From NCBI RefSeq assembly GCF_020622065.1, contig NZ_JAHRYQ010000001.1, positions 806,001-870,000 of the forward strand: 64,000 bases of DNA, read 5' to 3'. The translations under genes and the position numbers were made by a program. The DNA is from Geothrix sp. GTDB lineage: Bacteria; Acidobacteriota; Holophagae; Holophagales; Holophagaceae. Shown piece after piece: positions 39,596 through 55,103 of the stretch. Numbering within the stretch: position 1 is the first letter of the stretch; each line of letters begins with the position of its first letter. The notes under the pieces were generated by a model. That model worked only from the letters and a program-made list of their open reading frames with translations. It was not told where the DNA came from and searched no databases.

Positions 39596-39616
39596 GTTAG
39601 GGCTCATGGAGTCATC

Positions 39617-40345
39617 GTGCTTACCTCTGCTGGCCTTCTTTCAAAACTGCTTACGCTTATTGCCGAGAAGTCAGCATCGAAACTAATCACGCTCCCATTT
39701 GATAAACGCAAGAAGGCCTGTCGGACTTTGACCAAGCTTTACTACTCTGTCCAGTGCCTCGACGATGTCACTCAAACCCTGCTCTATACCTTTCAAGGGT
39801 TTATCAAATATGGAACAGCAAGCGCCCTAGTGACATGTCTACGGAACCACCAAAGGGACCTCGAGCTCGCATCCAATATGTTCATGGAGCTCTCAGAAGA
39901 GTTACAAGGTGGTCTGGAAATCATCGACCCATCGCTGGCCAAGTGCTGCAGTGCTATTTATTCCGGCAAGGGTGGTTTTCTTGACTACATTTCGAATTCG
40001 ATAACCATCGACCGCCGAGCAGGCGTAGCTACCATCACGCTTAATATTCCAAACGGGAATGTCGAGCTCAATCAACTTGAAGCCATGTATCAATCTTCAG
40101 AAGAGGCAGAAGCTCAGCATGTCAAACACTTTTGGCCGCATGGAGCCTTTGAATTCCTAAGCCGCGATATACAAAAGATCGATCTCCAAAGTATCAGCAA
40201 TGAAGCCGGCGATGAACTTCTCAGCATGATCCAGAATCAGAACAACCTCCTCAGAGCAGCCAAAGAATCCTTGCGGATTTTGCTCAAGGAGAATTTCACA
40301 ATTGATGAAATATTATTCCAGAATGACAGTCACCCATACCGATGA
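39617..40345 (+). CDS. Cassette 1: hypothetical protein
   Basis: 242 residues from the GTG at 39617. This start is chosen because GGAG lies 5 nt upstream and it falls 15 nt after the GTTAGGG core, the spacing seen in the other cassettes. It is a mainly helical, probably cytoplasmic protein with alternating hydrophobic and charged stretches (LIAEKSASKLITLPFDKRKK). No family recognised. The stop codon is directly before the first attC. Low GC relative to the backbone indicates an origin elsewhere. Confidence 0.7.
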   Translation: MLTSAGLLSKLLTLIAEKSASKLITLPFDKRKKACRTLTKLYYSVQCLDDVTQTLLYTFQGFIKYGTASALVTCLRNHQRDLELASNMFMELSEELQGGLEIIDPSLAKCCSAIYSGKGGFLDYISNSITIDRRAGVATITLNIPNGNVELNQLEAMYQSSEEAEAQHVKHFWPHGAFEFLSRDIQKIDLQSISNEAGDELLSMIQNQNNLLRAAKESLRILLKENFTIDEILFQNDSHPYR

Positions 40346-40346
40346 G

Positions 40347-40470
40347 CCCTAACCCTCCGCTCAAGTCGGACCCCGCCTGCATTGCCTTCCGCTCTCTCTC
40401 AACATTTCGCTACCTCGGCTCCGCTCATCGTCTCGGTGCAGGCGTGGCCGCTTAGCTTCATTCGTTAGGT
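40347..40470 (+). repeat. attC site 1
   Basis: 124 nt. R'' CCCTAAC at 40347 and R' GTTAGGT at 40464. CAAG/CTTG-class inner stem (CAAGTCGG pairs with CCGCTTAG with one extra T). Closes cassette 1. Confidence 0.9.
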
Positions 40471-40475
40471 TTCTG

Positions 40476-40958
40476 ATGCCCGAAACTCGCTTCGACCAAA
40501 GCCAATACCACGCGATGAAGGCCGTGTTCGAAGAAGTTCTCGGCCGTGAAAGCTTCACCAAGGTAAAGGACTATGGCTCAATCAAAGCCTGGCGAACGGA
40601 ATCCAAGAGACTACTTAAAGCGGTTTCCATCTCCCTCGCAGCAACAGTTCAGGTCTATGACGATGAGTGGATGGCAGAGCTTCAAAGCCATATCCAACGG
40701 GGGATTTCTCTTGTCGAATCGTGCTCTGAACTCGATGAACTCTTTTCGAGCCTTGCCGCCACTCTCGCCCGAGTGACATTTCTACAAATCGGGTTTCTTC
40801 CCGTTGGTCACCGCAACATCGATCGGGTTCCGCTTACACCGAGTCAGTGGAAACTCGATCCGGTCCGTAGCGTTCAATATGTTCAGAATGATGAACAGCG
40901 TAAAACACAGCGTCGGCTCCTGTCCCGCAGGAAAGGCCCAGAATTGTGCGAAACCTAA
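40476..40958 (+). CDS. Cassette 2: hypothetical protein
   Basis: 160 residues; the ATG is 5 nt after the attC core. No signal peptide or family recognised. The middle is helical with two hydrophobic patches (LKAVSISLAATVQVY and SSLAATLARVTFLQIG). The C-terminal tail is basic (RRLLSRRKG). The stop TAA is inside the R'' core of attC 2, a typical cassette economy. Confidence 0.65.
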   Translation: MPETRFDQSQYHAMKAVFEEVLGRESFTKVKDYGSIKAWRTESKRLLKAVSISLAATVQVYDDEWMAELQSHIQRGISLVESCSELDELFSSLAATLARVTFLQIGFLPVGHRNIDRVPLTPSQWKLDPVRSVQYVQNDEQRKTQRRLLSRRKGPELCET

Positions 40959-41076
40959 CCCTCCGCTCAACTCGGACCCCGCCTGCATTGCCTTCCGCTC
41001 CTTCTCTTCGTTCCGCTTCCTTGGCTCTGCTCAGCGCCTCGGCACAGGCGGGTCCGGTTAGCTTCATTCGTTAGGC
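40953..41076 (+). repeat. attC site 2
   Basis: 124 nt. R'' ACCTAAC at 40953, R' GTTAGGC at 41070. CAAC/GGTT-class inner stem. Confidence 0.92.
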
Positions 41077-41083
41077 GTTACCC

Positions 41084-41506
41084 ATGAAATCACTCCTCGT
41101 GATGGCCCTTCTACTCATGGCTTGCACGCCACGGACTCCTTCATCAGAGCCATATCAGCCACTGAACGTTGATTTCCGTGATTACTGGGAACCAACATTG
41201 AAATCCACTCCGATTGGATTCAAGTTCCCATCAAACCCGGCCACCTCGGAGAAGGTGGTCATCGATGTTGATACCCAGATTGATAAACAGGGTCTCCCAA
41301 CCGGGGCAAAAGCCACGGCCCAATCCTCAGCCTTTGCATCAGCCGCTGAAGAATATGTTATGGCCTGTATATTTCAACCCGCCAAATTCGATGAAAAGTG
41401 GACGGATTGTACTTTTAGAATCAAAGTTATCTTCAACACTCCTAATCATGAAATCTACTTACGCACTAACAACAACAAGCAGTTTCGATCACCCGATTCC
41501 AAATAA
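41084..41506 (+). CDS. Cassette 3: small lipoprotein, possible TonB C-terminal-like domain
   Basis: 140 residues. Lipobox-type leader MKSLLVMALLLMACTPRTP, so the mature protein would be lipid-anchored at Cys14. The rest includes VVIDVDTQIDKQGLPTGAKA and EEYVMACIFQPAKF, which resemble the strand-turn-helix pattern of TonB C-terminal domains (VxIxPxGxxxxAxV ... Axxxxxxx+FxPA). The match is weak, and the plain label exported lipoprotein is safer. Confidence 0.65.
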   Translation: MKSLLVMALLLMACTPRTPSSEPYQPLNVDFRDYWEPTLKSTPIGFKFPSNPATSEKVVIDVDTQIDKQGLPTGAKATAQSSAFASAAEEYVMACIFQPAKFDEKWTDCTFRIKVIFNTPNHEIYLRTNNNKQFRSPDSK

Positions 41507-53530: not shown

Positions 53531-53553
53531 ATCACTTATCAGGAGGCATCAAC

Positions 53554-54009
53554 ATGCGTCGAACAGCACCCCTTGTTGGTTTGGTCTTGGCGGCTTGTCT
53601 TGCATTCAGGCCTCTAAGTGCGCAGGAAGCTCTCAAGCTGAAAGCCAACGAGCTTGCCACTCACCCGCTTCAAGCCAATGGTCTTTCCATAACCATCACA
53701 GGACTCAATGGCCACCAGCTTATCGCTTCAATTACTAAATGGGCTGGCCGTGCTCATGTAAAAATCACCTTCGAAAACAAGAGCTCTTCATTCCAAACAT
53801 TCTCTCCCTCTGATCTATGCTTTGTCGGAGGCGATGGGGTTCAGGCTTTACCCATTTATGAAATCAATAAGGCCGATGACACCACTCCACTCACCTTCCG
53901 CATTGCCCCAGCGGCGCGATTGAGCACTGAGTATGTCTTAACAGGTCGCCTCAACTTCCCTGTCAAGATCTACCTTGGGGATCGCCTGGTGGCGCAAGTT
54001 ACTGAGTAG
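53554..54009 (+). CDS. Cassette 24: exported protein of unknown function
   Basis: 151 residues; CAGGAGG precedes the ATG. Signal peptide MRRTAPLVGLVLAACLAFRP ends near LSAQ. The mature part looks like an immunoglobulin-type beta-sandwich (HVKITFENKSSSFQTFSPSD, AARLSTEYVLTGRLNFPVKI), similar in plan to small periplasmic domains that respond to protein stability. No family recognised. Confidence 0.68.
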   Translation: MRRTAPLVGLVLAACLAFRPLSAQEALKLKANELATHPLQANGLSITITGLNGHQLIASITKWAGRAHVKITFENKSSSFQTFSPSDLCFVGGDGVQALPIYEINKADDTTPLTFRIAPAARLSTEYVLTGRLNFPVKIYLGDRLVAQVTE

Positions 54010-54017
54010 GGGTCAAT

Positions 54018-54126
54018 GCCTAACCTTCCACTCAACTCGGATCCTATCGCTGCGCGCTAGGGTCCTCAAAGAATTCGGCCTCCGAGTCCCCGCGGCAATG
54101 GGGCCGATTAACATCCTTCGTTAGGC
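54018..54126 (+). repeat. attC site 24 (diverged, 109 nt)
   Basis: R'' GCCTAAC at 54018, R' GTTAGGC at 54120. The outer parts match the long class (CAACTCGGA and GGCCGATTAAC), but the central part is different (CTATCGCTGCGCGCTAGG). Confidence 0.85.
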
Positions 54127-54154
54127 CTCTTCACCCACCTCATCAGGAGATCCT

Positions 54155-54901
54155 GTGTCCATCGAAACCGAAGAGGATGTAATTGCACTCAAACGCATAG
54201 GCAAGATCGTTTCATTTGTGCTTCAGGAGATGCTAGAGGCTGCAGAACCGGGCATGACTACGCGAGAGCTGGATTCATTCGGTGAGAAATTGTTAGAGAA
54301 ACATGGGGCACGGTCAGCACCTAGACTCACATACGGCTTCCCAGGATCAACCTGCATCAGCATCAACGAAGAGGCCGCACACGGCATCCCAGGGGATCGA
54401 GTGATTCGACCTGGCGATGTATTGAACATCGATGTCTCTGCTGAGCTGGGAGGCTACTTCGCCGACACTGGAGGAACAAAAGTTGTTCCTCCGACCAATC
54501 CACAGAAGACGAGCTTGTGCCTTGCCACCCGCACGGCCCTCGAGCAAGCCATGAAGCAGGCCCGAGCTGGCCAGCCCATCAATGGCATCGGCGCTGCAAT
54601 CCAGCGAACTGCGAAGGCCTACGGCTTAAGGATTATCGAAAACCTCGGTAGCCACGGGGTTGGTCGCGCACTGCATGAGGCACCCGAATACATTCCCGCC
54701 TACTTCGATCCGACGGACAGGCGCACCTTGCGAGAAGGCATGGTGATTACCATTGAACCCTTCCTCTCGACAAAAAGCCGCGTGGTAACCGAGGCGTCCG
54801 ATGGATGGACCTTGGTTGGCATGCGTGGCAATTTGTCAGCTCAATACGAGCACACAATGATAATTACCAAGGGCGAACCCATTGTCGTTACCCAACACTG
54901 A
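54155..54901 (+). CDS. map: Cassette 25: type I methionine aminopeptidase
   Basis: 248 residues from a GTG preceded by CAGGAG. It removes N-terminal Met from new proteins. The five metal ligands are intact: Asp93 and Asp104 (NIDVSAELGG ... YFADTGG), His167 (SHGVGRALHE), Glu201 (ITIEPF) and Glu232 (QYEHTMI). The length is normal. The AHGIP His (76) also matches the family. An essential housekeeping enzyme in a cassette is unusual; the cell surely has another copy elsewhere. It is the last complete cassette gene. Confidence 0.92.
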   Translation: MSIETEEDVIALKRIGKIVSFVLQEMLEAAEPGMTTRELDSFGEKLLEKHGARSAPRLTYGFPGSTCISINEEAAHGIPGDRVIRPGDVLNIDVSAELGGYFADTGGTKVVPPTNPQKTSLCLATRTALEQAMKQARAGQPINGIGAAIQRTAKAYGLRIIENLGSHGVGRALHEAPEYIPAYFDPTDRRTLREGMVITIEPFLSTKSRVVTEASDGWTLVGMRGNLSAQYEHTMIITKGEPIVVTQH

Positions 54902-54998
54902 ATTTTCTCGTGTATAGCCTTCCTCGGCCTAGCGTTACCGATGCTTTACTCGTCATCCGCTGCATCAAGAAACACATTCCCTAAACCACCCGTCATCG

Positions 54999-55103
54999 GT
55001 CTAACCCTCCGCTCAAGCCCGACTCTGCCGGCATTGCTTTCCACTCTCTCAGCATTTCGCCATCTCGACTCTGCTCGTGGTCCGGGTGCAGGTGAGCCCA
55101 GTC
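54999..55103 (+). repeat. attC site 25, decayed end of the array
   Basis: R'' GTCTAAC at 54999 with recognisable CCTCCGCTCAAG, GCCGGCATTGC, CTCTCAGCATTTCGCCATCTCG and GGTGCAGG blocks, but the right arm and the GTTAGGC core are lost. It marks the right edge of the array. The 97 nt before it (54902-54998) hold no gene. Confidence 0.7.

Follow-up and report, generated by a model that had tools for sequence, protein, structure and literature searches.

The window, a 64,000-nucleotide stretch of a Geothrix genome (G000:C1:806001-870000; 3.35 Mb in two contigs), carries a long attC array that is probably, judging from sequence comparison, an integrase-less satellite of a sedentary chromosomal integron: satellites of this kind, each headed by a copy of attI, would be served in trans by a single IntI and were possibly seeded by attI-bearing cassettes. 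The genome encodes a single intact IntI with an attI and an array of its own next to it, a second copy of this attI starts the window array, and the attC sites of the window have the structure that IntI uses. Coordinates are collected in Table 1.

The attC array and the integron of the genome

Twenty of the attC copies are 128 nt long and 72-88% identical to a reference copy, as established by repeat search and alignment, which also delineated three short + strand copies of about 65 nt. The window sites have the RYYYAAC ... GTTRRRY ends and the folded, bulged bottom strand by which attC is recognised: all four intact bottom strands tested form a hairpin with paired R and L boxes, unpaired spacers and bulged bases (z -2.7 to -4.2), and the site at 54018 folds weakly (z -1.1). 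Searching Rfam returned no match for the attC sites, the only Rfam finds being tRNAs. In each cassette the largest ORF lies on the + strand, and a tblastn search with the genome's own IntI yielded no IntI-like sequence in the window or in two flanking loci. Clusters of attC that lack an integron-integrase are known as CALINs (IntegronFinder, PMC9024848), and with 25 attC and no intI nearby the window array is a CALIN.

The intact intI is found on the other contig. Its product scores 463 bits over the full 315 positions of TIGR02249 (cut-off 265 bits), the family of integron integrases that have the additional segment specific to IntI; it is related to the Vibrio IntI4 (structure 2A3V, E 3e-85), and its best named relatives, at 85-88% identity, are from Geothrix. 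IntI is present in 30 of 47 congeners, with two IntI genes in G012, G018 and G030, and the same neighbour gene is kept at 16 of 29 intI loci, so the integron is a sedentary one of long standing in this genus. Sites of the window's attC family recur at C1:846-861 kb (the window array, 25 sites), C1:1576-1596 kb (36), C2:621-638 kb (22, behind intI), C2:1194-1197 kb (6) and a few minor loci.

Much of what the earlier note had read from the window agrees with these results: the Holophagae-type genome (the organism, Geothrix, belongs to Holophagaceae), the cassette genes on one strand, the missing intI beside the array, and the uniformity of the attC sites, as in sedentary integrons. Its count of 24 intact attC sites and one eroded one needs a small correction: the array and the eroded site are real, and the intact sites comprise 23 good ones and the weak one at 54018. 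A covariance model built from the window sites recovers all 25 in a genome-wide search, but does so by construction. The description of an array without an integrase fails at the level of the genome. Of the two sources suggested there for the integrase, supply from elsewhere stands, given the IntI on another contig, whereas loss lacks support, no intI remnant having been found beside the array. By the note's own rule, this genome has a normal chromosomal integron, of which the window array is a CALIN satellite.

Table 1. Features of the window and of related loci. Positions are those of the window unless a contig (C1, C2) is given; R3 is the attI model described in the text.
Feature	Position	Strand	Remarks
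Insertion (island)	38533-59275		about 20.7 kb at the 3' end of tRNA-Ser(gga); contains the entire array
Decayed phage-type tyrosine recombinase	38810-39273	+	C-terminal half, interrupted by stop codons; when read through, the C-terminus matches Phage_integrase, E 3.6e-4
Orphan attI module	39385-39601	+	about 215 bp; 5' edge approximate, eroded; attI at 3' end
Orphan attI (R3 match C1:845547)	39547-39601	+	heads the window array; core GTTAGGG at 39596; E 5.9e-12 genome-wide, 47.5 bits
Cassette 1	39602-40470	+	ORF 39617-40345, no Pfam match; ends in attC 40347-40470
attC array	40347-55105	+	25 same-strand sites: 23 canonical, 1 weak, 1 eroded
Non-eroded attC, span of 24	40347-54126	+	
attC sites, first 12 of 24	40347, 40953, 41520, 41992, 42515, 43112, 43990, 45273, 45648, 46416, 46941, 47304 (short)	+	
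attC sites, last 12 of 24	47786, 48373, 49678, 50297, 50699, 51357, 51849, 52212 (short), 52711, 53114, 53466 (short), 54018 (weak)	+	
Cassette 11	46534-47065	+	body identical to cassette at C1:1585 kb
Cassette 12	47059-47369	+	without large ORF; same body as cassette 20 and two cassettes of the C1:1576-kb array
Cassette 15	48491-49801	+	trypsin-like peptidase gene 48528-49661, Trypsin_2 E 7.8e-26
Cassette 20	51967-52277	+	second copy of cassette 12
Last cassette gene	54155-54901	+	M24 metallopeptidase family, E 2.5e-42
Eroded terminal attC	54999-55105	+	partial sequence match; no attC fold, z +1.5
tRNA-Ser(gga)	59277-59367	-	island insertion site
R3 match	C1:1576369		E 3.3e-14; heads a 36-attC integrase-less array
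R3 match	C2:620725		E 8.7e-13; true attI
R3 match	C2:622231		E 1.9e-7; within the integron's own array, at the end of an about 215-bp cassette-like module
R3 match	C2:1006338		E 5e-7; heads an integrase-less one-gene, one-attC locus
intI, intact	C2:619549-620493	-	336 aa; own attI and own array adjacent

Copies of attI at array heads and the module that carries them

In Geothrix, attI sites adjoining intI typically end in CCGTCCAATTCAAAGTTAGGC, with ACTAGGCGAAC before it. We built an attI model, R3, exclusively from 18 such intI-adjacent sites and searched whole genomes with it; a mixed model (R2) was set aside for the main claim as circular, since orphan sites were among its inputs. At E <= 0.05, R3 has five matches in the 3.35 Mb of the genome, every one of them beside attC (Table 1). 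Our own estimate, which counts about 1 kb ahead of five array heads on a single strand of the 3.35-Mb genome, puts the chance of such a placement at <1e-3 per match. The six-attC array at C2:1197 kb is headed by a 23-nt attI core (E 0.009). The window array begins at its own copy of attI, which the earlier note had missed: position 39596, which it gave as the left edge of the array, is the core of this attI and not an attC. Measured against a complete integron, the window locus has an attI at its 5' end and lacks an adjacent intI. A scan of 38500-39700, around this attI, for a sigma-70-like site that could serve as the cassette promoter Pc found nothing.

The pattern extends to other species. 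In G015 and G008 all integrase-less arrays of at least three attC have an attI match roughly 0.2-0.7 kb upstream of the first attC, two of these matches being partial: R3 matches head the G015 arrays at 1970, 2165 and 2604 kb, with a partial match (E 0.0185) at the 2545-kb cluster, and the G008 arrays at 1547 and 2640 kb, the latter with a partial match. Clusters of one or two attC in these two genomes mostly have no attI head detectable by R3, so not every CALIN has this origin. For the large arrays of G030 no attI head was found, in a tally of arrays that is partial for G030 and G005.

Upstream of its 55-nt attI, the window copy belongs to a gene-less module that can be aligned over its full length with modules at C1:1576 kb and C2:622 kb of the same genome and in G001, G003, G007, G008, G009 and G010. 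At C2:622064-622285 the edges of the module are exactly the core of the preceding attC and the module's own core, and in G001, G003 and G010 the core of the true attI stands in place of the attC core as the first edge; these four copies have the form of an attI-type (delta-attI) cassette, and the window copy has an eroded 5' edge. Since the core-site edges are fixed in different contexts, as expected of a cassette, the module is cassette-like. A TAAAAT-like box conserved in other copies is absent from the window copy, and the first 150 bp of the module bear no clear likeness to the true intI-attI interval.

One of the satellites has a recognisable empty site. The array at C1:1576 kb is flanked by a TPR-like gene (by our reading of the sequence) and a small conserved gene, and only the module lies between the intact TPR-like gene and the attI. 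The two flanking genes lie side by side in G010, G001 and G005, where their junction reads CGTTAGGC, GCTAGGC and GCTAGGC, respectively; in G000, G007 and G008 the array occupies that very point. Compared in this way, the junctions fit insertion at a core-like sequence.

Relation to known integron systems

Like other CALINs (PMC9024848), the window array has at least two consecutive attC and no intI nearby, and like the CALINs of Xanthomonas (PMC12444791) it has an intact intI elsewhere in the genome. The Geothrix satellites differ from known CALINs in carrying attI heads, and one of them, with 36 attC, exceeds the 22 behind intI. The closest parallel to the attI heads is the Shewanella prophage M16-3 (PMC9892861), in which a CALIN and a complete integron share one element and start with the same type of attI. 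However, M16-3 is a single case in one prophage, whereas the Geothrix pattern is seen at several chromosomal loci in several species and involves the attI module.

Cassettes in which an attI-derived site replaces attC are known as delta-attI cassettes from class 1 and class 2 integrons, and recombine with IntI1 (PMC12901181). These carry resistance genes and mostly short pieces of attI (14-18 nt, one of 244 nt), while the Geothrix module is gene-less, about 215 bp long with a 55-nt attI, and also heads satellite arrays. The conserved intI locus, the uniform attC family and the many cassettes of unknown function liken the system to the sedentary chromosomal integrons of Vibrio and Xanthomonas, although there the cassettes lie mostly in one array and in Geothrix they are spread across several attI-headed ones.

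The components are thus known, and their combination appears to be a new variant. We did not find recurrent attI heads on satellites in several species, together with a mobile-looking module and a core-sequence empty site, in the open-licence papers searched, so that earlier reports may exist elsewhere, and a full-text search of the open literature returned no paper on an integron of Geothrix. Because descriptions of attI outside class 1 are poor and IntegronFinder does not detect it there, attI-headed CALINs would be overlooked. If the orphan attI sites work, one integrase can insert cassettes at several chromosomal places, and how many such sites a genome has becomes open to evolution. A genus-wide sedentary integron of the Acidobacteriota is documented here as well.

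Possible exchange between arrays and the origin of the satellites

Most cassette proteins of the window have no match in Pfam, NCBIfam or PADLOC. Some cassettes are shared with the C1:1576-kb array: the 397-bp body of cassette 11 is 100% identical to the copy at C1:1585 kb, the match as a whole covering 545 nt with 3 mismatches and stopping at core sites, and the bodies of cassettes 12 and 20 are 100% identical to those of two cassettes in that array. There, the order of cassettes 11 and 12 is reversed relative to the window, with breakpoints at core sites or no more than a few bases away. Identical cassettes with core-site breakpoints form the pattern of cassette recombination and suggest recent activity; gene conversion or parallel capture could alternatively have produced them.

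In the mechanism that we propose, the distant IntI would act in trans: circular cassettes would enter at the orphan attI (39596), and cassettes would be excised between the attC sites of the window array. Less certainly, the attI-bearing module, which occurs within the main array or directly after it, would insert alone or with a cassette at a core-like chromosomal site (GTTAGGC) and so found a satellite, which would then enlarge through ordinary cassette capture. Taken to its full extent, this would mean that a mobile, gene-less attI-bearing cassette seeds new attI-headed arrays at core-like sites and that the integron of a genome is distributed over several insertion platforms, all run by a single IntI, giving large CALINs a constructive origin and not one by decay; we put this wider proposal forward tentatively, as a serious possibility.

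The genomic setting of the window array raises another prospect, namely that it was imported whole, arriving ready-made from another Geothrix on the tRNA-Ser island, and is now inactive. The array does lie within a lineage-specific 20.7-kb insertion: in the close relative G008, which lacks the island, the sequences matching window positions 38532 and 59276 are separated by 83 bp, and the interval from TauE to tRNA-Ser holds other DNA in G009 (0.6 kb), G003 (3.9 kb), G032 (5.5 kb) and G014 (5.9 kb). At the left edge of the island, a search for the tRNA-Ser end as a long direct repeat found none, so the att sites of the island are putative. The decayed phage-type recombinase within the insertion is probably the former integrase of the island; we considered it as a remnant of intI and rejected this, as it is phage-type and the best IntI match in the region has E 0.8. 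We regard import of an inactive array as unlikely, because the identical cassette bodies, reordered relative to the C1:1576-kb array and ending at core sites, suggest recent exchange within the genome, and because whole import leaves the other attI-headed satellites unaccounted for. As far as arrival is concerned, import is compatible with a satellite, and the window attI copy, sitting inside the island, may have come with it.

Loss of intI is the usual account of CALINs (PMC9024848), and satellites that were once complete integrons, their intI deleted and attI and array left behind, would explain the attI at the array head; the two IntI genes in some congeners (G012, G018, G030) could be cited in favour of such degradation. 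It is nevertheless poorly supported, since no intI remnant was found upstream of the orphan attIs and since only the module separates the intact TPR-like gene from the attI at C1:1576 kb. The same module, moreover, occurs with fixed edges inside arrays and behind the true attI, and we judge degradation quite improbable as the source of the satellites.

That ordinary cassettes were seeded off-target at chromosomal attG sites, the likeness to attI reflecting convergence on the core sequence, is very improbable: cassettes are known to insert at attG sites (cited in PMC12901181 and PMC12444791), and the empty site at C1:1576 kb is core-like (GTTAGGC), but the likeness to attI spans 55 nt (E 5.9e-12 at the window site) plus the about 215-bp module, far past a 7-nt core. 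The 55-nt match largely refutes attG seeding for the large arrays; for the small attI-less clusters it may hold.

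IntI and satellite arrays beyond the source genome

Among the listed matches to the Geothrix integron integrase IntI, the top-ranked one without a Holophagaceae or Holophaga label is L147 (labelled Rubrivivax sp.; 69% identity), and it is followed in the list by many proteobacterial IntI proteins at ~60-73% identity. The Geothrix IntI lineage seems to be found in Beta- and Gammaproteobacteria as well. Among the congeners, G012, G018 and G030 have two IntI genes apiece. The single-contig congener G032 has a truncated IntI match (positions 1-215) and only 14 attC matches, which would fit arrays dwindling once the integrase is lost. 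Since the same peptidase-like gene precedes satellites, i.e. arrays without an adjacent intI, both in the source genome (G000:C2:1194-1197 kb) and in G002 (G002:C9:3053-3184), this satellite position seems common to different species.

Cassettes of the window array

Two arrays together hold four copies of a ~311 bp cassette that lacks a large ORF; the bodies of the four copies are identical, and the cassette also has several diverged relatives. It is possibly a non-coding or promoter cassette. The trypsin-like peptidase encoded by another cassette also matches RT-Protease_XI, a PADLOC model (E 1e-17). The match falls in the protease part, with none to a reverse transcriptase part.

Coordinates of cassettes and neighbouring features
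Feature	Location
~311 bp cassette	window 47059-47369
~311 bp cassette	window 51967-52277
~311 bp cassette	C1:1578 kb
~311 bp cassette	C1:1585 kb
Trypsin-like peptidase	window 48528-49661
Lantibiotic dehydratase fragment (N-terminus only), histidine kinase, LytTR response regulator, in this order	window 55263-58239
Insert	window 38533-59275
tRNA-Ser(gga) gene, with the insertion spot at its 3' end	window 59277-59367
Truncated IntI match	G032:C1:774509-775153

The tRNA-Ser insertion spot

The insertion spot at the 3' end of tRNA-Ser(gga) varies across the genus; in six genomes, the interval from the TauE-side genes to the tRNA gene spans 83 bp to 20.7 kb. The segment running from the dehydratase fragment to the response regulator lies past the end of the array, yet within the tRNA-Ser island.
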